Source: Falsiroseomonas stagni DSM 19981 (lineage in GTDB: Bacteria > Pseudomonadota > Alphaproteobacteria > Acetobacterales > Acetobacteraceae). From it: a stretch of DNA of 64,000 nt. The position numbers and the translations under genes are program-made. The first letter of the stretch is position 1; every line of letters begins with the position of its first letter. This document shows, piece after piece, positions 17,540 to 27,929 of the stretch. The stretch covers positions 248,001 to 312,000 of the forward strand of contig NZ_FOSQ01000003.1 in assembly GCF_900114315.1 (NCBI RefSeq). The letters run 5' to 3'. The notes under the pieces were generated by a model. It ran no database searches, was not told the origin of the DNA, and was given only the letters and a program-made list of their open reading frames with translations.

Positions 17540-18322
17540 TCAGACCTGGCGCTCGGCCAGCATCTTCTTGATCTCGCCGATCGCCTGGCCGGGGTTCAGC
17601 CCCTTCGGGCAGGTCCGGGCGCAGTTCATGATGGTGTGGCAGCGATAAAGCTTGAACGGGTCCTCCAGCGCATCCAGCCGCTCGCCCGTCGCCTCGTCGC
17701 GGCTGTCCGCGATCCAGCGATAGGCCTGCAGCAGCACGGCCGGGCCGAGGTAGCGGTCCCCGTTCCACCAGTAGGAGGGGCAGGCCGTGGAGCAGCAGAA
17801 GCACAGGATGCATTCCCACAGCCCGTCGAGCTTGGCGCGCTCCTCCTTGCTCTGGAGGCGCTCGCCATCCGGCGGCGGGGGGGTGTCGGCCTTCAGCCAG
17901 GGCTCCACGCTGCGGAGCTGCGCGTAGATCTGGGACAGGTCGGGCACCAGGTCCTTCACCACCGGCATGTGCGGCAGCGGGTGGATGCGGACCTCGCCCT
18001 TCACATCCTCGATCGGCTTCAGGCAGGCCAGCGTGTTCAGCCCGTCGATGTTCATCGAGCAGGAGCCGCAGATGCCTTCCCGGCAGGACCGGCGGAAGGT
18101 CAGCGTGGTGTCGACCTCGTTCTTGATCTTGATGAGGGCATCAAGAACCATCGGCCCGCAGGCGTCGAGGTCGATGTCGTAGGTATCCGTGCGCGGGTTC
18201 TCCCCGTCATCCGGATTCCAGCGATAGATCTTGAAGCTGCGCACCTTCTTCGCGCCATGCGGCGCGGGATAGTGCTTGCCCTTCGAGATCGTCGAATTCT
18301 TCGGCAGCGTGAACGTCGCCAT
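17540..18322 (-). CDS. sdhB: Succinate dehydrogenase iron-sulfur subunit
   Basis: Carries electrons from the flavin in SdhA to ubiquinone at the SdhC/SdhD site (complex II, TCA cycle). The protein has 260 residues. The [2Fe-2S] ligands are in [15 protein letters not shown] and the following LACLKPI; the [4Fe-4S] and [3Fe-4S] ligands are in [16 protein letters not shown] and [18 protein letters not shown]. All expected cysteines are present. Last gene of the sdhCDAB operon, 14 bp after sdhA; a strong hairpin follows. Confidence 0.98.
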
Positions 18323-18336
18323 GATCCATCGGGCTC

Positions 18337-20154
18337 CTAGTACACGCGGGCCTTGGGGGGGAAGACCTGCACTTCATTGGTCAGGGTGCGCATCTTCACG
18401 TCGCGGTAGTCGAGCTTGACGTTCCGCTTGTCGTCCACCCAGGCGAGGGTGTGCTTCATCCAGTTCTGGTCGTCGCGGTCGGGGAAATCCTCATGCGCAT
18501 GCGCGCCGCGGCTTTCCTTGCGGGCATCGGCGCCGACCACGGTGGTCAGCGCGTTGCCGATCAGATTGTCCAGTTCCAGCGCTTCCAGCAGGTCGCTGTT
18601 CCAGATCAGGCTGCGGTCGGCGATCTTGATGTCCTCGTAGCCCGCCGCGACCTTGTTCATCTTCTTCACACCCTCGGCCAGCAGTTCCGTGGTGCGGAAC
18701 ACCGCCGCGTGCTCCTGCATCGTCCGCTGCATCTGCAGGCGGACGTCGGAGACGGTGGAAGACCCCTTGGTGTGGCGGATCTTGTCGAAGCGGGCGAAGG
18801 AGGCTTCGCCCGCGCCCGGCGGCAGCGGCGCCTGGGTCGCGCCCGGCTTGATCGTCTCCGCCGCCCGGTGCGCCGCGGCGCGCCCGAAGACGACGAGGTC
18901 CAGCAGCGAATTGGTGCCGAGGCGGTTGGCGCCATGGACGGAGACGCAGGCGGCCTCGCCCACCGCCATGAGGCCGCGCACCACGCGATCCTGGTCACCC
19001 GGCGTCGGGTTCAGGACCTCGGTGTGGATGTTCGTGGGGATGCCGCCCATGTTGTAGTGGACGGTGGGGAGCATCGGGATCGGCTCCTTCGTCACATCCA
19101 CGCCGGCGAAGATTTTTGCCGTTTCGGAAATGCCCGGAAGGCGCTCGTGGAGAAGATCGGCGCCGAGGTGTTCCAGGTGCAGGTGGATGTGGTCCTTCAG
19201 CGGGCCGACGCCGCGGCCTTCCCGGATCTCCACCGACATGGCGCGGGAGACGACGTCGCGGGACGCCAGGTCCTTTGCTGTCGGCGCGTAGCGCTCCATG
19301 AAGCGCTCGCCTTCGGAGTTGGTGAGGTACCCGCCCTCGCCGCGCGCGCCTTCCGTCACCAGGCAGCCGGAGCCGTAGATGCCGGTCGGGTGGAACTGGA
19401 CGAATTCATTGTCCTGCAGCGGCAGGCCGGCGCGCAGCGCCATGCCGCCACCATCGCCCGTGCAGGTATGGGCGGAGGTGCAGGAGAAATAGGCGCGGCC
19501 ATAGCCGCCCGTCGCCAGCACCACGGACTGGGCGCGGAAGCGGTGCAGGGACCCGTCCTCCAGGCACCAGGCCGTCACGCCGCGGCACACGCCCTCATCA
19601 TCCATGATGAGGTCGAGGGCGATGTATTCGACGAAGAACTCGCAATTGGCCTTCAGCGCCTGCTGGTACAGCGTGTGCAGGATGGCGTGGCCGGTGCGGT
19701 CCGCGGCGGCGCAGGCGCGCATCGCGGGCGTCTTGCCGTAATCCTGCATGTGGCCGCCGAAGGGGCGCTGGTAGATCTTGCCATCCTCGGTGCGGCTGAA
19801 GGGCACGCCGAAATGCTCAAGCTCGATGATCGCGGGAATGGCTTCCCGGCACATGTATTCGATCGCGTCCTGGTCACCCAGCCAGTCCGACCCCTTCACG
19901 GTGTCGTACATGTGCCAGCGCCAGTCATCCTCGCCCATGTTGCCGAGGGCGGCGCCGACGCCGCCCTGCGCCGCCACCGTGTGGCTCCGCGTCGGGAAGA
20001 CCTTGGTGATGCAGGCGGTCTTGAGGCCGGAGGCCCCCATGCCGAAGGTGGCGCGAAGCCCCGCGCCGCCGGCGCCGACCACGACCACGTCATAGGTATG
20101 ATCGACGATGCGGTAGGCACCGTTGCCGATCGAGGGCTTCGAGATGGCGTTCAT
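18337..20154 (-). CDS. sdhA: Succinate dehydrogenase flavoprotein subunit
   Basis: A protein of 605 residues, the usual length. The FAD-binding Rossmann motif is [13 protein letters not shown] (GxGxxG at 27-32). The covalent flavin histidine is His58 in [16 protein letters not shown]. The dicarboxylate site includes the [18 protein letters not shown] and [16 protein letters not shown] regions. Oxidises succinate to fumarate on the cytoplasmic face. Lies between sdhD and sdhB. Maturation in bacteria can involve SdhE or the SDHAF4 family; an SDHAF4-like gene occurs at 53685-54029. Confidence 0.98.
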
Positions 20155-20226
20155 CAGCTGTGCCGTCCATTCATCAGGCGGGGCCCCGTAGCCCGCGCCA
20201 CCAGATCATCAACTAGGCGCGGCGTG

Positions 20227-20634
20227 TCAGACCGCAATGCGCAGAACGGCCAGCGCGGCCGCCAGCGCCAGCAGCGTGCAGGCGAACTTCACCGCGAGCA
20301 CGGCGGCCATCTTGCGGCCCTCCGGCTTCACATAATCCTCGATCACCACCTGCAGCCCGGCCGCGATGTGGTGGAAGGTCAGGCCGATCAGGGCCAGCAG
20401 CAGCACCGCGTTCAGCGGATGCCCGATCCAGGCCTGCGCCACATGATGCGGCATGCCGGCGGAGGTCGCGAGCGAGGCGATGAACCAGATTGTCAGCGGC
20501 AGCAGCGCGATGGAGGTGACGCGCTGCCCCCACCAATGCGCGACGCCGGACTTGGCGGAACCGGCCCCCCGCACGCGGCCGAGCGGCGTGCGAAGCTGGG
20601 CCTGGCGGGGGGATTCGCCCGTGGAATGCGACAT
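20227..20634 (-). CDS. sdhD: Succinate dehydrogenase membrane anchor subunit
   Basis: A protein of 135 residues with three membrane helices. The N-terminal AKSGVAHWWGQRVTSIALLPLTIWF stretch and the second-helix TFHHIAAGLQVVIEDYV carry the conserved Arg, heme-region His and quinone-site Asp/Tyr typical of alphaproteobacterial SdhD. Located 11 bp downstream of sdhC and 72 bp upstream of sdhA in the operon. Confidence 0.95.
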   Translation of the reverse strand: MSHSTGESPRQAQLRTPLGRVRGAGSAKSGVAHWWGQRVTSIALLPLTIWFIASLATSAGMPHHVAQAWIGHPLNAVLLLALIGLTFHHIAAGLQVVIEDYVKPEGRKMAAVLAVKFACTLLALAAALAVLRIAV

Positions 20635-20645
20635 CTTGCCTTACC

Positions 20646-21089
20646 TCACCAGGACATCAGCAGCGCGAGCCAGGTAGCCGCCGTCAGCACGCCCGTGCCG
20701 ACCAGCACCGCACGGCCCGTCTTGTAGACGGTCGGGATGTCATAGCCCCAGCCCGCATCCCACAGCAGGTGGCGAACCCCCGCCAGGGTGTGGAACCAGG
20801 CCGCGCCCGTCAGCCCCATCAGGAACAGGATGCCGATGAAGGAACCAAGGAACCATTGAACCGTGGCGAAAGCCTCCGGCCCCGATGCCGCGGCCACCAG
20901 CCACCAGACCATCACAGCCGCGCCCACGGACCAGATCACGCCCGTGATGCGATGGCTGATCGACAGCGCGCTCGTCATCTGCAGCATGTCATAGACCTGC
21001 AGATGCGGCGACAACGGGCGGCGCACCGGCGTGCCATCCGACCGGCGACCGACCATGGTCGCCTCCCGCGAATCCTGCATTATCGACAT
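20646..21089 (-). CDS. sdhC: Succinate dehydrogenase cytochrome b556 subunit
   Basis: A protein of 147 residues. The frame is open to 21224, but ATG 21089 has GAGGAG ten bases upstream; later in-frame ATGs at 21080 and 21056 are possible. The signature RPLSPHLQVYD opens the family domain, followed by SISHRITGVIWSVG (quinone-site Ser/Arg) and WFHTLAGVRHLLWDAG (heme ligand His). Three membrane helices. First gene of sdhCDAB; a good sigma-70-type promoter with an overlapping palindrome lies about 65-90 bp upstream. Confidence 0.95.
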   Translation of the reverse strand: MSIMQDSREATMVGRRSDGTPVRRPLSPHLQVYDMLQMTSALSISHRITGVIWSVGAAVMVWWLVAAASGPEAFATVQWFLGSFIGILFLMGLTGAAWFHTLAGVRHLLWDAGWGYDIPTVYKTGRAVLVGTGVLTAATWLALLMSW

Positions 21090-21152
21090 GCGGCGCCCGC
21101 TCCTCATGGCACGCCCGGCGTCGAGGCTGGGCGCGCGCTCACCTGTGGATGC

Positions 21153-21181
21153 TTTTATGGTGCACCGCGCCATAGCGTCAA
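21153..21181 (-). promoter_or_regulatory. Probable sigma-70 promoter of sdhCDAB
   Basis: On the minus strand: TTGACG (21181-21176), 17-base spacer, ATAAAA (21158-21153). The -35 is near consensus and the -10 is acceptable for a GC-rich alphaproteobacterium. It would give a leader of about 55-60 nt before the chosen sdhC start. Confidence 0.6.
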
Positions 21182-21190
21182 CGCGGTGCA
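21161..21190. promoter_or_regulatory. Inverted repeat overlapping the sdh promoter -35 box
   Basis: tgcaccgcg (21161-21169) - 12 bases - cgcggtgca (21182-21190): perfect 9-bp arms flanking and touching the -35 box. The position suits a repressor or activator that adjusts complex II synthesis. The regulator is not identifiable from this window. Confidence 0.5.
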
Positions 21191-21253
21191 ACATGGACAG
21201 GCGTCCATCTGACAAATCGTGCATGAAGGCGACAGGAATGATATCCTATTGCC

Positions 21254-21478: not shown

Positions 21479-21535
21479 ACCGGCCGGAACCCCCCTTCCT
21501 TGCCGCCGCCGGAAGGCCCGCCTACCGTCTTGTTG

Positions 21536-22795
21536 ATGGAGACGCCACGACGCCGCGGCAAGCGGGCAACAGGCAGGGTAGCGGTGCTCGGGGCGGGCAT
21601 CACGGGCTGCTCGACCGCGCTGTTCATGGCGCGGCAGGGCTACAGCGTGACGCTGTTCGACCAGGCGCGTCAGCCCTTCGAGGGATCGAGCGGCTGGAAC
21701 GACGGCAAGCTCCATCTCGGCTATCTCTACGCCGCCGATCCCAGCCTGGGCACCGCGCGGCAGCTGCTGACGGGCGGCCTGCTGTTCAAGGACATCGTGG
21801 AGGAGCTGCTCGGCGGCTCCATCGCCGGCGCCACCACGCCGCGGGACGAGATCTTCCTGCTGCATCGCGATTCGGTCGTCCAGCAGCAGGGGATCGAGGC
21901 CTATTTCCGCCGGGTCTCCGACCTGGTCCGCAGCCATCCCGATGCCGGCCGCTACTGGGACGACGCCGCCCGCCGCGGCGCCACGCCGCTGACGGCGGCG
22001 GAGGCCGCGCAGACCGCGCCGGAGGGCGGCGCCATCCTCGGCGCCTGGCGCCTGCCGGAGCGCAGCGTCTCCTCCCGCTGGATTGCGCGGCGCTACATCG
22101 CCGCACTCGCCGCCGAACCGAAGATCGAGCTCCGCACCGGCAGGCGCGTGCTGGGCGTCCGGCCGGAGGGGGAGGCGGGGCTGGAGGGCAGCCTCGATGG
22201 CCCCTTCCGGGTCGAGACCGATGCCGGCACGGACGGCCCCTTCACCATTGTGGTGAACGCGCTGTGGGAAGGCCGCTGCGTGATCGACCAGGGAATCGGC
22301 CTTGGGCCCCTGCCGGAAGTGACCCACCGCTATCGCTACGCGCTGTTCGTCCACACCGCCCGGCCCGTGGCGCAGGACAACGCCCTGATCGGGACGGGCC
22401 CCTTCGGCGATGTGAAGGCCTATGGCGACCGGGATTTCTACCTGTCCTGGTATCCCGCGGGCCTGGTGGCGGAAGGCCGCGACCCCGCGCCGCCGCCCGT
22501 GCCGGCGATGGATGAGGCCGCGCGCCAGGCCCTCGCCCACCGCATCCTGGACGGCCTGGCCGAACACCTGCCGGCGGTGCGCCGCGTGGCCGATGGCGCG
22601 GCGCATATGGACGTCCAGGGCATCTGGGTCGTCGCCCCGGGCAGCGGCCCCCTGCACGACCCCGCCGCCGGGCTCCATCGCCGCGACCGCTTCGGCATCC
22701 GCCGCACCGGCCGCTACATCTCCGTCGACAGTGGCAAGTTCAGCACCGCGCCCTGGATGGCGCGCGAAGTGGCGGCGATGTTCCGGGGGGGGTAG
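21536..22795 (+). CDS. FAD-dependent oxidoreductase (DAO-like)
   Basis: A protein of 419 residues from ATG 21536; a TTG at 21500 in the same frame is less likely. The N-terminal dinucleotide fold is VAVLGAGITGCSTALFMARQGYSVTLFDQ, with Gly-x-Gly-x2-Gly and the terminal acidic residue binding FAD ribose. The middle contains SSRWIARRYIAALAAEP and FTIVVNALWEG, in the style of the D-amino-acid oxidase/glycine oxidase superfamily. C-terminal YISVDSGKFSTAPWMAREVAAMF resembles the second FAD contact. Substrate unknown. Not obviously linked to the convergent asd-like gene 24 bp downstream. Confidence 0.85.
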   Translation: METPRRRGKRATGRVAVLGAGITGCSTALFMARQGYSVTLFDQARQPFEGSSGWNDGKLHLGYLYAADPSLGTARQLLTGGLLFKDIVEELLGGSIAGATTPRDEIFLLHRDSVVQQQGIEAYFRRVSDLVRSHPDAGRYWDDAARRGATPLTAAEAAQTAPEGGAILGAWRLPERSVSSRWIARRYIAALAAEPKIELRTGRRVLGVRPEGEAGLEGSLDGPFRVETDAGTDGPFTIVVNALWEGRCVIDQGIGLGPLPEVTHRYRYALFVHTARPVAQDNALIGTGPFGDVKAYGDRDFYLSWYPAGLVAEGRDPAPPPVPAMDEAARQALAHRILDGLAEHLPAVRRVADGAAHMDVQGIWVVAPGSGPLHDPAAGLHRRDRFGIRRTGRYISVDSGKFSTAPWMAREVAAMFRGG

Positions 22796-22819: not shown

Positions 22820-23863
22820 TCAGTCGTCGAGCAGCTTCCGCGCCACCAGTTCCTCGGCGATCTGCACCGCGTTCAGGGCCGATCCCTTGCGGAGGTTGTC
22901 CGTGACGCACCAGAAGGCGAGGCCGTGCGGCACCGTCAGGTCGCGGCGCAGGCGGCTGACATAGACCGTGTCCTCGCCCGCGATCTCGGCCGCGGTGGCG
23001 TAGCCGCCATCCTCCCGCCGATCCAGGATGATGACCCCCGGCGCGTCCCGCAGCGCGGCCCGTGCCTGCGCCTCGCTCACCGGGCGTTCGAAGGCCACGT
23101 GCACGGCCTCCGCATGGCCGATGAAGACCGGCACGCGCACGCAGGTCGCCATCACCGCGATGTCGGGGTCGAGGATCTTCCGCGCTTCCGCCGCGAGCGC
23201 CCATTCCTCCCGCGTCGCGCCGTCATCCATGAAGTCGCCGATATGGGGGATGCAGTTGAAGGCGATCTGCTTCGGGAACTGCTCGCCCGGCGGGGTCTCG
23301 TTCACATAGACGCCGCGGGTCTGGGTCCAGAGCTCGTCCATCCCCTCCCGCCCGCCATTGGAGGCGGACTGCCCGCCATCGGAGACGGATTGGTAGGTGG
23401 AGACGACGACGCGCCTGGCCTTGCCGATATCGTGCAGCGGCTTGAGGGCGACCAGCATCTGGATGGTGGCGCCGGTGGGGTTGCCGATGATCCGCCGCTT
23501 GCTGAAGCGGGTGATGGCGTTCGCGTTCACCTCCGGGATCACCAGCGGCACGTCGGCTTCCATGCGGAAGGCGCTGCTGCAGTCGATCACGACGCAGCCC
23601 TGGCCCGCGGCGCGCGGCGCGTGCACCTGGCTGACCGCCGCGCCGGCGGCGAAGAAGGCGATGTCGGTGTCGGAGAAGTCGTAGCTTTCCAGGCTGCGGA
23701 CCTTCAGCACCTCATCCTCGCCGAAGGATACTTCCTGCCCGCCGCCGCGCCCGGCGGACAGCGCCACGGCCGCATCCACCGGAAAGGACCGTTCCGCCAT
23801 CGTCTTGAGGATTTCCCGCCCCACCGCGCCGGTGGCGCCGACGACCGCGACCTTCATGCCCAT
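22820..23863 (-). CDS. asd: Aspartate-semialdehyde dehydrogenase homologue lacking the catalytic cysteine
   Basis: A protein of 347 residues aligning throughout with the class of ASADH that reduces beta-aspartyl phosphate (lysine, threonine and methionine synthesis). The NADP fold GATGAVGREILKTM is intact, as are Q158 (VVSTYQSVS), R243 and H250 (CVRVPVFIGH). However, the nucleophile motif normally read NPNCST is N128-P-T-G131-A-T here, so both the phosphate-binding Asn and the catalytic Cys are absent. The N of VIDNTS is Cys95, and a seven-residue insertion (about 166-172, SASNGGR) lies in the next loop. A new Cys204 is present (FNCIPH). It may be a pseudo-enzyme or an altered-activity paralogue; the codons (AAC CCC ACC GGC GCC ACC) read unambiguously. 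Confidence 0.9.
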   Translation of the reverse strand: MGMKVAVVGATGAVGREILKTMAERSFPVDAAVALSAGRGGGQEVSFGEDEVLKVRSLESYDFSDTDIAFFAAGAAVSQVHAPRAAGQGCVVIDCSSAFRMEADVPLVIPEVNANAITRFSKRRIIGNPTGATIQMLVALKPLHDIGKARRVVVSTYQSVSDGGQSASNGGREGMDELWTQTRGVYVNETPPGEQFPKQIAFNCIPHIGDFMDDGATREEWALAAEARKILDPDIAVMATCVRVPVFIGHAEAVHVAFERPVSEAQARAALRDAPGVIILDRREDGGYATAAEIAGEDTVYVSRLRRDLTVPHGLAFWCVTDNLRKGSALNAVQIAEELVARKLLDD

Positions 23864-23948
23864 GCTGCGGCTCCTGCCTGGAAGGGGAGGGGCGGCTTAG
23901 GCGGTTAAGCCGGAGGGGGCAAGCAGAGACCCCCTCCGGCCGGTCGGG

Positions 23949-26267
23949 TCACAGCGCCCGTACCGCCCGCAGGAACCCGTCCGTCTTGGCGCGCAGCAGT
24001 TCCGCCTGGCTGGCCAGCGCGCCGCTGTCGTCGCGCACCGCGCTGGCGGCGCCGCCGGTGGCGTTGGCCGCGCCGCGGATGCCCTCGATCCCGGATGCGA
24101 CCGTCTGGGTGGCTTCCGCGACCTGTGCCGCGCTGCGGGCGATTTCCTGCGTGGCCGCACCCTGCTGTTCCACGGCGGCCGCGATGGCGGTCGCGATCTC
24201 GCTGGTGCGTTCCACGGTCGTGCCGATGCCGCGGATGGCGGCCACGGCCCGGCTGGTGGCCTGCTGCATCTGGCCGATCTGCTGGCCGATCTCCTCCGTC
24301 GCGCGGGCGGTCTGCCCGGCCAGCGTCTTCACCTCGCTCGCCACCACGGCGAAGCCCTTGCCGGCGTCGCCGGCGCGCGCGGCCTCGATCGTCGCATTCA
24401 GGGCCAGCAGGTTGGTCTGGCCGGCGATGTCGCCGATCAGCCGCACCACGTCCCCGATGCGGGCCGCCGCTTCGGACAGGCCCTGCACGGTGGTGTCGGT
24501 GGCGCGGGTCTCCGCCACGGCCTGGCTCGCCACGCTGGCGGCTTCCGAGACCTGGCGGGAGATCTCGGTGACCGAGGCCGCCATCTCCTCCGCTGCCGCC
24601 GCGACGGCCTGCACATCCGCCTGCGCGCGCCCGCCCGCCGCGGCCACGGCCGCCGCCTGGGTGCCGGATGTCTCGGCCGAGGCGCTGAGCCCGACCGCGG
24701 ATTGCCGCAGGCGCTGCGCGCTTTCCGCCACCGCGCCGACGACCTGGCCGACCTCCGTCTCGAAGGTATCGGCCAGGCGAACCTTTTCCGTCGCCACGCT
24801 CCAGCACAGCATCGTGGCGGTATAGGCGCCGGCCGCGTCGCGGATGGCGGAGATGCGGAGTTCCAGCACCTCCTCCCCCATCTTGATGCGGGCGGTGTGC
24901 GGCAGGCGGGCCGGGTCGGACAGGATCGCGCGCTGGTGGCCGGGGTTCTTGTGGAAGATGTCGATGGACTGGCCGATCATCTCATCCGCCGCGCAGGGCA
25001 TCATTGCCGCCAGCTTGTCCACCAGTTTCCGCGTCTCCGCGTTCATGTAGGTCATGCGGAAATCGTTGTTGGGGTCCGCGGACATCACCGCGGTCGGCAG
25101 CTGTTCGATCATCTGCTGCTGGGCGAAGGCCCGGCCGGTGGTCACGCGCAGCGTCTCCAGCGCCTCCGCGATCGAGCCGATCTCGTCGCTGCGGCCGCGA
25201 TGCGGCACGGCGATGGTCGCGTCGCCATCGGCGATCCGGCGCATCACGCCGGACAGGCGGCGTAGCGGCGTGCCGATCAGGCGGGACAGCAGCAGGCCGG
25301 ACAGGATCAGCACCACCGCGATGGCCAGCCCGGCCCAGATCGTGCCCTGGCGGGCGGCCTCGGCCTCCTCCGCCACGGCGGCGCGCTGCGCGGCGGAAAT
25401 GCGCAGCGCCGCTTCCGTCACGGCGCCGATCGTCTCCCGCATCGCCGCGCGGGCGGGCTCCACCTGTTCGCGACGGGTCTTCGCGATCTCCTCGCCCGCC
25501 ACCAGCACCTTGTTCGAGGCCTCGCCCACGGCGATGGCGCGGTCCATCAGGCGGTTGATGTCGTCCTTCACGCGGGGCGGCGCTTCGATGGACGCCAGGC
25601 CGCGGCCATGCACGCGGCCCTGCGCGATCCCGCGGCGGATGCGGCGGACCTGCGCTTCCTCCCCGGTCGCCAGCAGGCGCTGGATGCCCAGCCGCGTATC
25701 GTTCACCGCGGCGTGCACCGTCATCAGGCGCTGGCGGGCATCCTCCTGCTGGTCGGCCGGCACGTCGAAGCCGATTGCTGCCGCCACCGCCTCGAACAGG
25801 CTGTCATAGTCGCTGCTGCGCGGGAAAAGCTCATTGTCCCGGGCCTGGATCATCTGCAGCCGCAGTTGCGAGACGCGTTCCAGCGCCTGGCCGTAGCTGG
25901 CCGCCGCCCCATCCAGCCGCTGGATCGCCGCCGTCATCTCTGGCCGGTTGAGCCGCTGCCCGGCTTCCCGCACCACGCTGCGCCCCTGCTCCAGCGCGGT
26001 CGCGATCCGCTGCCAGGCCGGCGCCTGTTCGGCCTCCAGGTGCAGCAGCAGCAGGTCGCGCTCCAGTACCGCCACCTCGCGCAGCGCGTCGGCACCCTCC
26101 TCCAGCCGGTCCATCGCCGCCTCGGTCTCCGCCGAGGCCGCCTGTTCCGCGATGATGCCGGTGGTGGCGCGCCACACCAGGCCGGTCAGCACGGCCAGCA
26201 TCGCCAGGGTGAGCAGGGCCGAGGCCGCGAGCTTCCTGCCCACGGTGAAATCCGGGATGAGTCGCAT
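23949..26267 (-). CDS. Methyl-accepting chemotaxis protein with periplasmic helical sensor, HAMP and PAS
   Basis: A protein of 772 residues. First membrane helix about 11-31, a long helical periplasmic region about 32-310 (four-helix-bundle style, rich in Leu/Arg/Glu), second helix about 313-335, then HAMP ([21 protein letters not shown]), a PAS domain about 390-500 ([26 protein letters not shown]) and the signalling domain with the tip [20 protein letters not shown]. The PAS motif resembles the type-II chemoreceptor PAS that can bind FAD or heme, suggesting aerotaxis or redox sensing as well as periplasmic ligand sensing (inference). Not in an operon with che genes. Confidence 0.94.
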
Positions 26268-26383: not shown

Positions 26384-27376
26384 TCAGCCCTGCACCAGGC
26401 TGTCCGGCACCGCGTGGCCGGCTTCGCGCAGGTAGCGCGCCGCGCCGGGGTGGAAGGGCAGGAAGGTGTTCTTCGTCCAGTTCTCCGCCAGCGTCTCCGA
26501 CGCCGCGGCGATGGCCTGGCGGAATCGGGCATTCTGGCCCAGCACCGACTTCGTGATCTCATAGGCCAGGTCGTCGGAAAGGCTGCGGTGGCTGATCGCG
26601 AAATTGTACATGCCGACGATGTTCAGCGGCTTTTCCTGCTTCCGGTAGGTGCCCATCGGCAGCGTGCCCGGCGACAGTTCCGGGAATTGAGTCGTCAGGC
26701 GCCGCACTTCATCCGCCGTGAAATCCAGGTAGTTCACATCGGCCTGCACCTCGATCTCGCTGAAGGCCGGCACCGGCACGCCGGAGGCGAAGAGGAAGCA
26801 ATCCAGCAGCCCGTCCTGGATCTGCCCCACCAGGTCGGACGCCGAGCCGTAGCGCACCGCGGAAGGCCGCACCCCCAGCGTGTTCAGGATCTGCGGGTAG
26901 TAGGTGCCCGGCGTGCCGCCGCGCGGGCCGACGCCGACGGAACGCCCGCCGAGCTGCGCATGCCCCGTGATCCCGCTGCGCTTCAGAGCGATGCCATGGA
27001 AGGGCGTGTCGTACATCGGGAACAGCGCGCGAATGTCGCGGAAGCGGTTGCCCTGGGTCCAGTCGCCCTGGCCGTTCCAGGCCTGCAGCGCGACGCCCAT
27101 CGTCACCATCCCCAGCTCCACCTCCCGCCGGTTCACCAGGATGATGTTCTGGTTCGGTCCCTGCGTGGTGCGGTAGGAAATCGCGACGCCCGTCGCCTCC
27201 TGCGCCATCTGCCCCCAGGCCGGGCCATAGAGTGCGTAGGTCCCCCCCGGCGCCGCCGTGCCCATCGTCAGCGCCCGCGGCCAGGATGCGTTGCGCGGCT
27301 GGGCCAGGGCGGGGCTGGCGAGCCAGGACGCCGTCAGGCCGAAGGCCGGGGCGGCAAGAATATGGCGGCGACGCAT
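26384..27376 (-). CDS. TAXI-family TRAP transporter solute-binding protein
   Basis: A protein of 330 residues from ATG 27376 (site GGAGGAAG). A Tat-like or Sec signal peptide (MRRRHILAAPAFGLTASWLASPALAQ) is followed by LTMGTAAPGGTYALYGPAW, the diagnostic N-terminal TAXI motif, and later GGRSVGVGPRGGTPGTYYPQIL and DALVNGL-type ligand-binding segments. It would bind a carboxylate such as an amino acid or dicarboxylate in the periplasm and present it to a fused TRAP membrane protein. No such permease is adjacent; the TRAP permeases at 39.9-42.0 kb belong to the DctQ/DctM type, so this binding protein is an orphan here. Confidence 0.92.
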   Translation of the reverse strand: MRRRHILAAPAFGLTASWLASPALAQPRNASWPRALTMGTAAPGGTYALYGPAWGQMAQEATGVAISYRTTQGPNQNIILVNRREVELGMVTMGVALQAWNGQGDWTQGNRFRDIRALFPMYDTPFHGIALKRSGITGHAQLGGRSVGVGPRGGTPGTYYPQILNTLGVRPSAVRYGSASDLVGQIQDGLLDCFLFASGVPVPAFSEIEVQADVNYLDFTADEVRRLTTQFPELSPGTLPMGTYRKQEKPLNIVGMYNFAISHRSLSDDLAYEITKSVLGQNARFRQAIAAASETLAENWTKNTFLPFHPGAARYLREAGHAVPDSLVQG

Positions 27377-27503
27377 GACGCTTCCTCCGTTTGTTGCTTG
27401 TATCCCGCCCGCATTACAGCCGGAACATCCGCCGGGGCAAGCCCAAGGGGCTTGCGCGCAAGGGGGCTTGCGGGGACTCGGCCGCCGGCCACATGCCGTG
27501 GCA

Positions 27504-27929
27504 ATGCTGCACCTGCTGAAACTCTGCGTCGGCCCGAAGGAGGTGGCGGAACTCGCCGCCAACCAGGCGCGCCGCGCTGCGCTCGACCCGCCGCTGCGCC
27601 ACCAGACGCGCATGGTGCCGAAGCGTGCGGCGGAATTGCTGGATGGCGGGTCGCTCTACTGGGTGGTCGCCGGCTTCATCCGCGTGCGCCAGCGGATCCT
27701 GGATGTGCGGGAGGAACGCTGGGACGACGGTTCCGCCTGCGCCGGCCTGGTGCTGGAGCCGGAACTGGTGCTGGTGGAGCCGCGGCCGCAGAAGCCCTTC
27801 CAGGGCTGGCGCTACCTGGAACCGGCCGCCGCGCCCCCGGATGCGCCGCGTGGCGGCGTGGCGGCGACGGGGCTGGAAGCCCTGCCGCCCGCGCTCCGCC
27901 GCGAACTCCAGGCGCTCTGCCTCATCTGA
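27504..27929 (+). CDS. DUF1489 family protein
   Basis: A protein of 141 residues starting at ATG 27504 (GTG 27498 is an alternative). The family features are clear: LHLLKLCVGPKEVAELA, HQTRMVPKRAAELLDGGSLYWVVAGFIRVRQRILDV, LVLEPELVLVEPRPQKPFQGWRYL. DUF1489 proteins are small cytoplasmic proteins restricted largely to alphaproteobacteria, with no assigned function. It lies divergent from the TAXI gene and stands alone. Confidence 0.92.
   Translation: MLHLLKLCVGPKEVAELAANQARRAALDPPLRHQTRMVPKRAAELLDGGSLYWVVAGFIRVRQRILDVREERWDDGSACAGLVLEPELVLVEPRPQKPFQGWRYLEPAAAPPDAPRGGVAATGLEALPPALRRELQALCLI

Follow-up and report, generated by a model that had tools for sequence, protein, structure and literature searches.

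A cysteine-less aspartate-semialdehyde dehydrogenase homologue at the ancestral asd locus of Falsiroseomonas stagni and its counterparts in related genera

The stretch of Falsiroseomonas stagni DSM 19981 DNA analysed here (the window, 64,000 nucleotides) encodes a homologue of aspartate-semialdehyde dehydrogenase (ASADH) that has a glycine in place of the catalytic cysteine. The locus raises the question of why the gene for a biosynthetic enzyme is kept once the nucleophile of its product is gone. The real finding is that the Cys has been lost repeatedly in place, nearly always in genomes with a backup gene, and that selection still acts on the altered copies.

A full-length ASADH homologue without the nucleophile

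The window protein matches both Pfam domains of the family (PF01118 and PF02774, the NAD-binding and dimerisation domains) and scores above the cut-offs of the ASADH (asd_B) sequence models, with 428.5 bits for the PRK14874 equivalog (cut-off 223) and 388.5 bits for the TIGR01296 equivalog (cut-off 324.2). The predicted model, built from 42 aligned sequences, has a mean pLDDT of 87, compared with 78 for an earlier model from 13 sequences. In Foldseek it aligns with V. cholerae ASADH II (2qz9) with TM scores of 0.88/0.91 and 45% identity. The modelling predicts an intact ASADH fold, with an unreliable region at residues 162–170, where the insertion listed in Table 1 lies.

Table 1. Features of the asd locus in the window
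Feature	Coordinates	Strand	Basis or occurrence
Cys-less ASADH paralogue, 347 aa, ancestral ('V') asd copy	22820..23863	minus	ORF, Pfam, NCBIfam, alignment, fold
NPTGAT at codons 128–133, replacing nucleophile motif NPNCST	23465..23482	minus	counted from start codon at 23863
7-residue insertion after STYQSV, residues ~161–167	23363..23383	minus	alignment; coordinates counted by hand
Promoter-like TTGCC-N16-CCTA, 5' of Cys-less gene	23898..23922	minus	pattern search; coordinates counted by hand
Methyl-accepting chemotaxis protein (MCP; HAMP + MCPsignal), directly upstream	23949..26267	minus	neighbour comparison
NMT1_3 (TAXI-type) protein, upstream neighbour	26384..27613	minus	conserved in 12/13 genus loci
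Succinate dehydrogenase (sdh) genes, marking ancestral asd locus	17540..21224	minus	10/13 genus loci, some other genera
FAD-dependent oxidoreductase (DAO), convergent neighbour	21500..22795	plus	in 4 genus loci

An initial annotation, made from the letters alone, had described an ASADH homologue with Gly131 for the catalytic Cys and with the Asn of NPNCST also gone. The alignment bears this out, since the full-length open reading frame reads NPTGAT, with C131 replaced by Gly and N130 by Thr. As it had also stated, Q158 (in STYQ, residues 155–158), R243, H250 and the NADP-motif glycines are present; we take H250 to be the acid/base His and R243 the substrate Arg. The protein also retains E219, R100, S97 and T133. 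The initial annotation had missed the replacement of K222 by Ala and the altered S37 and S40. In the family, K222 marks the place of the phosphate-binding Lys and N130 is the phosphate-site Asn, so that both members of this pair, like the catalytic Cys, are missing from the window protein. Because the thioester route needs a Cys, the window protein should not make aspartate semialdehyde, and we infer from its residues that this chemistry is beyond it.

Position 131 is Cys in all 158 intact family rows, which were selected for carrying Cys and count four genes twice, and in none of the 35 Cys-less rows described below. NPNCST is likewise read in 80/80 named relatives, these being the best 80 of 586 from the scan and a biased sample of the family. 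Among the Cys-less sequences the replacing residue is Ala (11), Pro (11), Ser (7), Gly (5) or Asp (1). Conservation of NPTGAT in relatives, which had been proposed as a check, is not what we find: the 35 sequences carry 28 different six-letter motifs, and what they have in common is the absence of the Cys, not any new motif. The insertion after STYQ is real, with seven residues, but it is confined to this genome (1/193 aligned rows).

The protein could still be an ASADH if a shifted cysteine, Cys95 here and Cys128 in others, carried out the thioester chemistry. Of the two cysteines that the initial annotation had put forward, Cys204 is not new, being found in 99/158 intact rows and in V. cholerae 2qz9. 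The VIDC at residues 92–95 is present as described, but Cys95 is rare, occurring in 4/35 Cys-less copies (3 genera; L032, L199, L283 and L291) and in 0/158 intact rows. Cys128 is found in seven Cys-less copies from two genera (L040–L044, L200 and L276) and also in 0/158 intact rows; new cysteines near the lost one thus appear repeatedly, at residues 95 and 128. This pattern speaks for a shifted nucleophile, but 24/35 Cys-less copies have neither Cys95 nor Cys128, which removes it as a general answer. K222 is moreover mostly lost in 6/7 genera and H250 in 5/7, and 34/35 of the genomes have an intact asd of another type. We consider a shifted cysteine very unlikely to do the job.

The standard family models call the Cys-less copy an ASADH well above their cut-offs, so pipelines are likely to annotate it as active, and genome-scale metabolic models may count the wrong asd gene as the active one.

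Distribution of Cys-less copies and of a second asd gene

The window genome (6.38 Mb, 44 contigs) holds three PF02774 genes, namely the window gene, a candidate that we presume to be argC, and a canonical asd on another contig. The canonical gene, which we call c-type, reads NPNCTT, and its product is 44% identical to the window protein. The search for a second asd with an intact motif, which the initial annotation had suggested, thus finds one, and the window gene is indeed a second, non-canonical paralogue. The c-type gene could supply aspartate semialdehyde in place of the Cys-less copy. With NPNCTT it is present in 15/15 genomes of the window genus. In the family sample, 24/200 genomes have a c-type gene, at 72–100% identity, and the next matches reach 54% or less. 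An ASADH of a third type, reading NPNCVA or NPNCAA and about 50% identical to the c-type (L232, L233, L235, L240; L202–L204), is the second copy in the four intact genomes of genus g4 and occurs in other genomes as well. The Cys is kept in all 37 c-type and third-type rows that were read (34 different genes). An ASADH-like copy with VANCST lies in a long open frame in L047 (725 aa; from G007, a genome listed with 7% contamination) and in L259 (from G240).

All 15 genomes of the window genus (g1) were searched. Full-length orthologues are found in 13 of them, including that of the window, and the other twelve proteins are 64–87% identical to the window protein. Twelve of the 13 lack the Cys, and only G014 is intact (NPNCST). 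The other motifs are NPNGST (G012), NPTGAT (the window), NPSPGS (G001 and G007), NPSPAS (G010), IPHPAT (G008), NPLDAI (G004), CPAPLA (G002), CPSALA (G009), CPGSAA (G013), CPGGMA (G005) and CPGSVS (G003). In G011 the gene is split over two contig ends and its N-terminal part reads SPCGIA; it is counted outside the 35. The search of the draft genome G006 did not find the ancestral copy.

Across the family, we find 35 full-length Cys-less copies in seven genera: 12 in g1, 11 in g4, 5 in g45, 3 in g16, 2 in g29, and 1 each in g102 and in g91, a genus with a single genome. For g1, g4 and g45 the search covered every available genome (15, 15 and 21), and the other four were reached through an evenly drawn sample of 200 family genomes. 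The survey covered recognisable homologues, and badly decayed copies would be missed. Most of the genomes are drafts, which might suggest a sequencing or assembly error at the Cys codon, but the loss is seen in 35 separate genomes of seven genera, and these differ in the residue and the codon that they carry there. These numbers refute such an error, whose probability we regard as negligible.

The motif of the ancestral copy could be read in 159 of the 200 sampled genomes, including all 24 with the c-type gene. In the remaining 41 it is unread (unlisted, too short or without a match); none of these has the c-type gene, and some have the third type. Where the c-type gene is present, 13 ancestral copies are Cys-less and 11 intact (24 genomes); where it is absent, one is Cys-less (in G104) and 134 are intact (135 genomes). 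Loss of the Cys is thus associated with presence of the c-type gene (Fisher P 8e-12 over the 159 genomes, uncorrected for relatedness). The split is complete in g4, where 11 Cys-less genomes have the c-type gene and four intact ones have the other second type, NPNCVA. It is incomplete in g45, in which several intact genomes also have the c-type gene. In three g45 genomes (G137, G058 and G225) no more than about 13 kb separates the Cys-less copy from the c-type gene.

The one exception among the 35 genomes with a Cys-less copy is G104, a 560-contig draft in which we found the Cys-less gene (NPSPAA; L199, L403) and no other asd; one further partial Semialdhyde_dh match is argC-like. Either this draft is incomplete or the strain makes aspartate semialdehyde otherwise. 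In the draft genome G073, which has only the third-type asd, the ancestral copy was not found. The Asd of Caldovatus aquaticus, one of the named species in the family, is identical to that of G061 (family label Roseomonadaceae). Literature searches, with most subscription journals outside their coverage, found no report of a Cys-less ASADH in this family.

Gene neighbourhoods and the number of losses

In the window the order of genes is MCP, Cys-less gene, DAO, sdh. Within the sdh block, Pfam confirms Sdh_cyt at 20646–21224, and the other sdh gene names are presumed. We do not regard the DAO gene as belonging to the system. We compared neighbours in 39 loci, among them 12/12 of the Cys-less loci in g1, 4/11 in g4, 3/5 in g45, 2/3 in g16, 2/2 in g29, 1/1 in g102 and 1/1 in g91.

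Cys-less copies and their intact congeners have matching neighbours in g1, g4, g45, g29 and g102. In g1 the MCP gene lies directly upstream on the same strand in 13/13 full-length loci, and the sdh genes follow asd in 10/13. The 13 include the locus of the intact G014, so the MCP neighbour does not single out the Cys-less form. In g4 the Cys-less copies and both intact ones examined precede the same sdh genes. The Cys-less copies of g29 and of two of the three g45 loci adjoin a block of genes c9, c11 and c14, presumably pqq genes, as do those of intact congeners; the third g45 locus (G137) has only other neighbours in common (c41, c15 and c16). The Cys-less and the intact copy of g102 both adjoin the same MCP and c10/c12 genes. 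These matching flanks suggest that an old gene has been altered at its own locus, and alteration of the ancestral asd in place is the most likely origin of the Cys-less copies.

The number of separate losses is estimated from the gene tree (67 rows, with G007b, G011N, G011C and G007c left out here and in the dN/dS comparisons below), which forces four changes of label between Cys-less and intact. If a lost Cys never returns, the tree implies at least five losses, in g16, g29, g102, G012 and the rest. Counting the genera that have intact congeners (with g1 twice) and adding g16 and g91 gives about eight. Within g1, G014 and G012 are sisters, with support of 98/74 and 99/93 in two trees, which implies two or more losses of the Cys in this genus unless G014 regained it. 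The tree also unites the Cys-less copies of g4, g45 and g91 in a group beside those of g1, which leaves the number of separate losses uncertain. Taken alone, this grouping would allow horizontal spread of one dead gene, but the flanks shared by dead and intact congeners oppose it. The grouping of dead copies probably reflects long-branch attraction, although a dead allele may instead have reached the same locus by recombination.

Constraint on Cys-less copies, possible function and precedents

As a reference for the pattern of loss, we used the 144 columns conserved at ≥97% in the 158 intact rows. For 71 of them no Cys-less genus shows a majority loss. Majority loss reaches 7/7 genera at N95, S97, C131 and T133 (the window protein keeps S97 and T133), 6/7 at S40, S72, N130, S132, K222 and E252, five at H250 and four at S37; R100 and Q158 are lost in only two genera each. 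Forty of the 144 columns, including R243, R39, K198 and N203, are kept in all 35 Cys-less sequences. By region, the always-kept columns are 27/75 of the invariant columns in the dimerisation domain, 11/51 in residues 1–127, 1/8 in the nucleophile stretch and 1/10 in the C-terminal helix. The mean number of genera with a loss is 3.88 at eight positions that we take to be catalytic (100, 130, 131, 158, 219, 222, 243 and 250) and 1.40 at the remaining 136 columns (P 0.0015 by permutation, for positions picked after the loss table had been seen). R243, kept in all 35, is a clear exception among the eight.

The ASADH scaffold could now run another reaction, either NAD(P)(H)-dependent or non-redox, that needs no cysteine. 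R39, R243, G15 and G42 are kept in all 35 copies, several active-site residues are retained in the window protein, and the copies are under purifying selection, all of which would be compatible with a new enzyme. A conserved new active site is nevertheless not what the pocket looks like, since hardly any two species share its motif (28 motifs among 35 sequences) and since S40, S72, N95 and S97 are mostly lost in at least six of the seven genera and S37 in four of them. We regard a new enzyme as unlikely.

Selection was estimated with simple Nei–Gojobori dN/dS over all pairs within a dS window, so that pairs are not independent. At dS 0.10–0.36 the median dN/dS is 0.193 for Cys-less pairs (14 pairs, 0.101–0.324) and 0.234 for intact pairs (88 pairs, 0.016–0.495); at dS 0.10–0.45 the medians are 0.233 (30 pairs, maximum 0.598) and 0.325 (468 pairs, maximum 0.606), respectively. 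The ratio for close Cys-less pairs is thus no higher than that for intact pairs. Three pairs in which both copies are Cys-less give 0.084 (G002–G009), 0.141 (G001–G010) and 0.086 (G042–G128). The ratio is higher for the deeper pairs of g1 (48 pairs, dS 0.1–0.6), with a median of 0.461 and values of up to 0.661, which may be inflated by saturation or possibly reflect an episode of fast change. Part of the history of the Cys-less copies may have passed under relaxed constraint; intact pairs also reach 0.61. All 35 Cys-less frames are 334–347 residues long, six of them taken only up to the end of the match. Across 13 non-overlapping Cys-less pairs we count 479 residue differences, a number at which unconstrained frames should have gained about 14 stops (nonsense/missense ratio ~0.03). 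The non-catalytic or regulatory role that the initial annotation had offered as one option fits this purifying selection.

These values also bear on whether a redundant old gene is merely drifting under weak leftover constraint since the c-type gene took over. Such slow decay would be in keeping with the link between Cys loss and the c-type copy, with the graded erosion from G012 (NPNGST) to G003 and G005, with dN/dS of up to 0.66 in the deeper pairs, and with the failure to find the ancestral copy in G006 and G073. It sits poorly with 35 full-length frames, with dN/dS in close pairs no higher than in intact ones, and with 40 columns kept throughout. Also against decay is the promoter-like element TTGCC-N16/17-C[CT]TA, which lies just upstream in 12/14 loci of the window genus (500 shuffles averaged 0.06 and never exceeded 2, for a pattern chosen after the loci had been seen). 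We judge decay to be improbable as the main explanation.

The reading that we prefer, and to which we give about an even chance, is that the window gene encodes a pseudoenzyme: with the chemistry taken over by the c-type gene, what it retains is a function of the ancestral ASADH that needs no catalysis. The gene would be the ancestral asd of the Alphaproteobacteria, still in its original place, and would have lost the ASADH reaction once a c-type asd could provide it. The ancestral protein would already have had a second function that needed a folded, probably dimeric protein and not catalysis, and the Cys-less copy would have retained only this function, a case of subfunctionalisation. Dead copies are kept in several lineages and repeated invention of a new role is implausible, so a second role that is ancestral is the simpler assumption. 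As a guess, the Cys-less copy might use the dimerisation domain that it has kept to serve as a scaffold, or as a partner that regulates an enzyme of the aspartate pathway; the c-type ASADH would be the first candidate. The pseudoenzyme reading is weakened by genomes in which the gene is apparently absent (G006 and G073, both drafts), the partner model by G104, which has the Cys-less copy only unless its draft is incomplete, and a pure scaffold by kept catalytic residues (R243 in 35/35) that exceed what a scaffold needs.

Stated more broadly, the ancestral ASADH may have a conserved function independent of catalysis, and lineages of one family in which a second asd relieved it of the chemistry would have shed the active site independently, at least five and perhaps eight or more times; we hold this tentatively, at somewhat less than an even chance. 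If it is true, the family provides a replicated natural experiment that separates enzyme and non-enzyme functions at the same locus, the 40 residues that none of the 35 dead copies has lost mark the needs of the second function, and ordinary single-copy Asd proteins elsewhere moonlight too. An essential biosynthetic gene appears to have been emptied of its active site repeatedly and independently, and intact sister species are available for comparison. Whether a central metabolic enzyme has a second, non-catalytic job thus becomes a directly testable question.

Among known systems, the window protein resembles bacterial ASADH (asd_B; V. cholerae ASADH II, 2qz9/2r00) over its whole length, in both Pfam domains, in exceeding the equivalog cut-offs, in its predicted fold, and in the NADP-motif glycines and R243. 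It differs in having no nucleophile Cys, N130, K222, N95, S37 or S40 and in the seven-residue insertion peculiar to it.

A second likeness is to Usg/USG-1 (E. coli usg; P. aeruginosa structure 2hjs), which shares with the window protein both the homology to ASADH and the lack of the catalytic Cys. E. coli, which has a real asd besides usg, reads VPDSLT at the nucleophile motif of Usg, and the protein is annotated as a putative semialdehyde dehydrogenase. The window protein scores below the cut-offs of PRK08040 (244.9 of 273 bits) and PRK05671 (242.7 of 284 bits), which we take to be the Usg models. The E. coli locus is pdxB-usg-truA, in contrast to MCP, gene, DAO and sdh in the window, and Usg lacks the Arg kept in the window protein (VVQAP in Usg, CVRVP here). 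With scores below these cut-offs and a different locus, we do not file the window protein as a Usg. The locus and the intact congeners suggest separate origins for the two, and E. coli Usg is an independent precedent showing that this kind of Cys-less ASADH exists. Deletion of usg in Salmonella is reported to have a phenotype, but in the same study the usg mutant came to resemble the wild type when it carried a truA plasmid (PMC6358828), so the deletion may act through the neighbouring gene.

Other cases are known in which a dead paralogue regulates an active one (PMC6221367, PMC10211241). The example described in the first is the AdoMetDC prozyme of T. brucei, a catalytically dead paralogue beside an active enzyme (PMC6221367). 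The window gene resembles the prozyme in being a dead paralogue beside a presumably active gene, here the c-type gene with NPNCTT. It differs in that a heterodimer with the enzyme is established in T. brucei, whereas such a complex is hypothetical for the pair described here. The prozyme is thus a model of how the window protein might work, and not one of its relatives.
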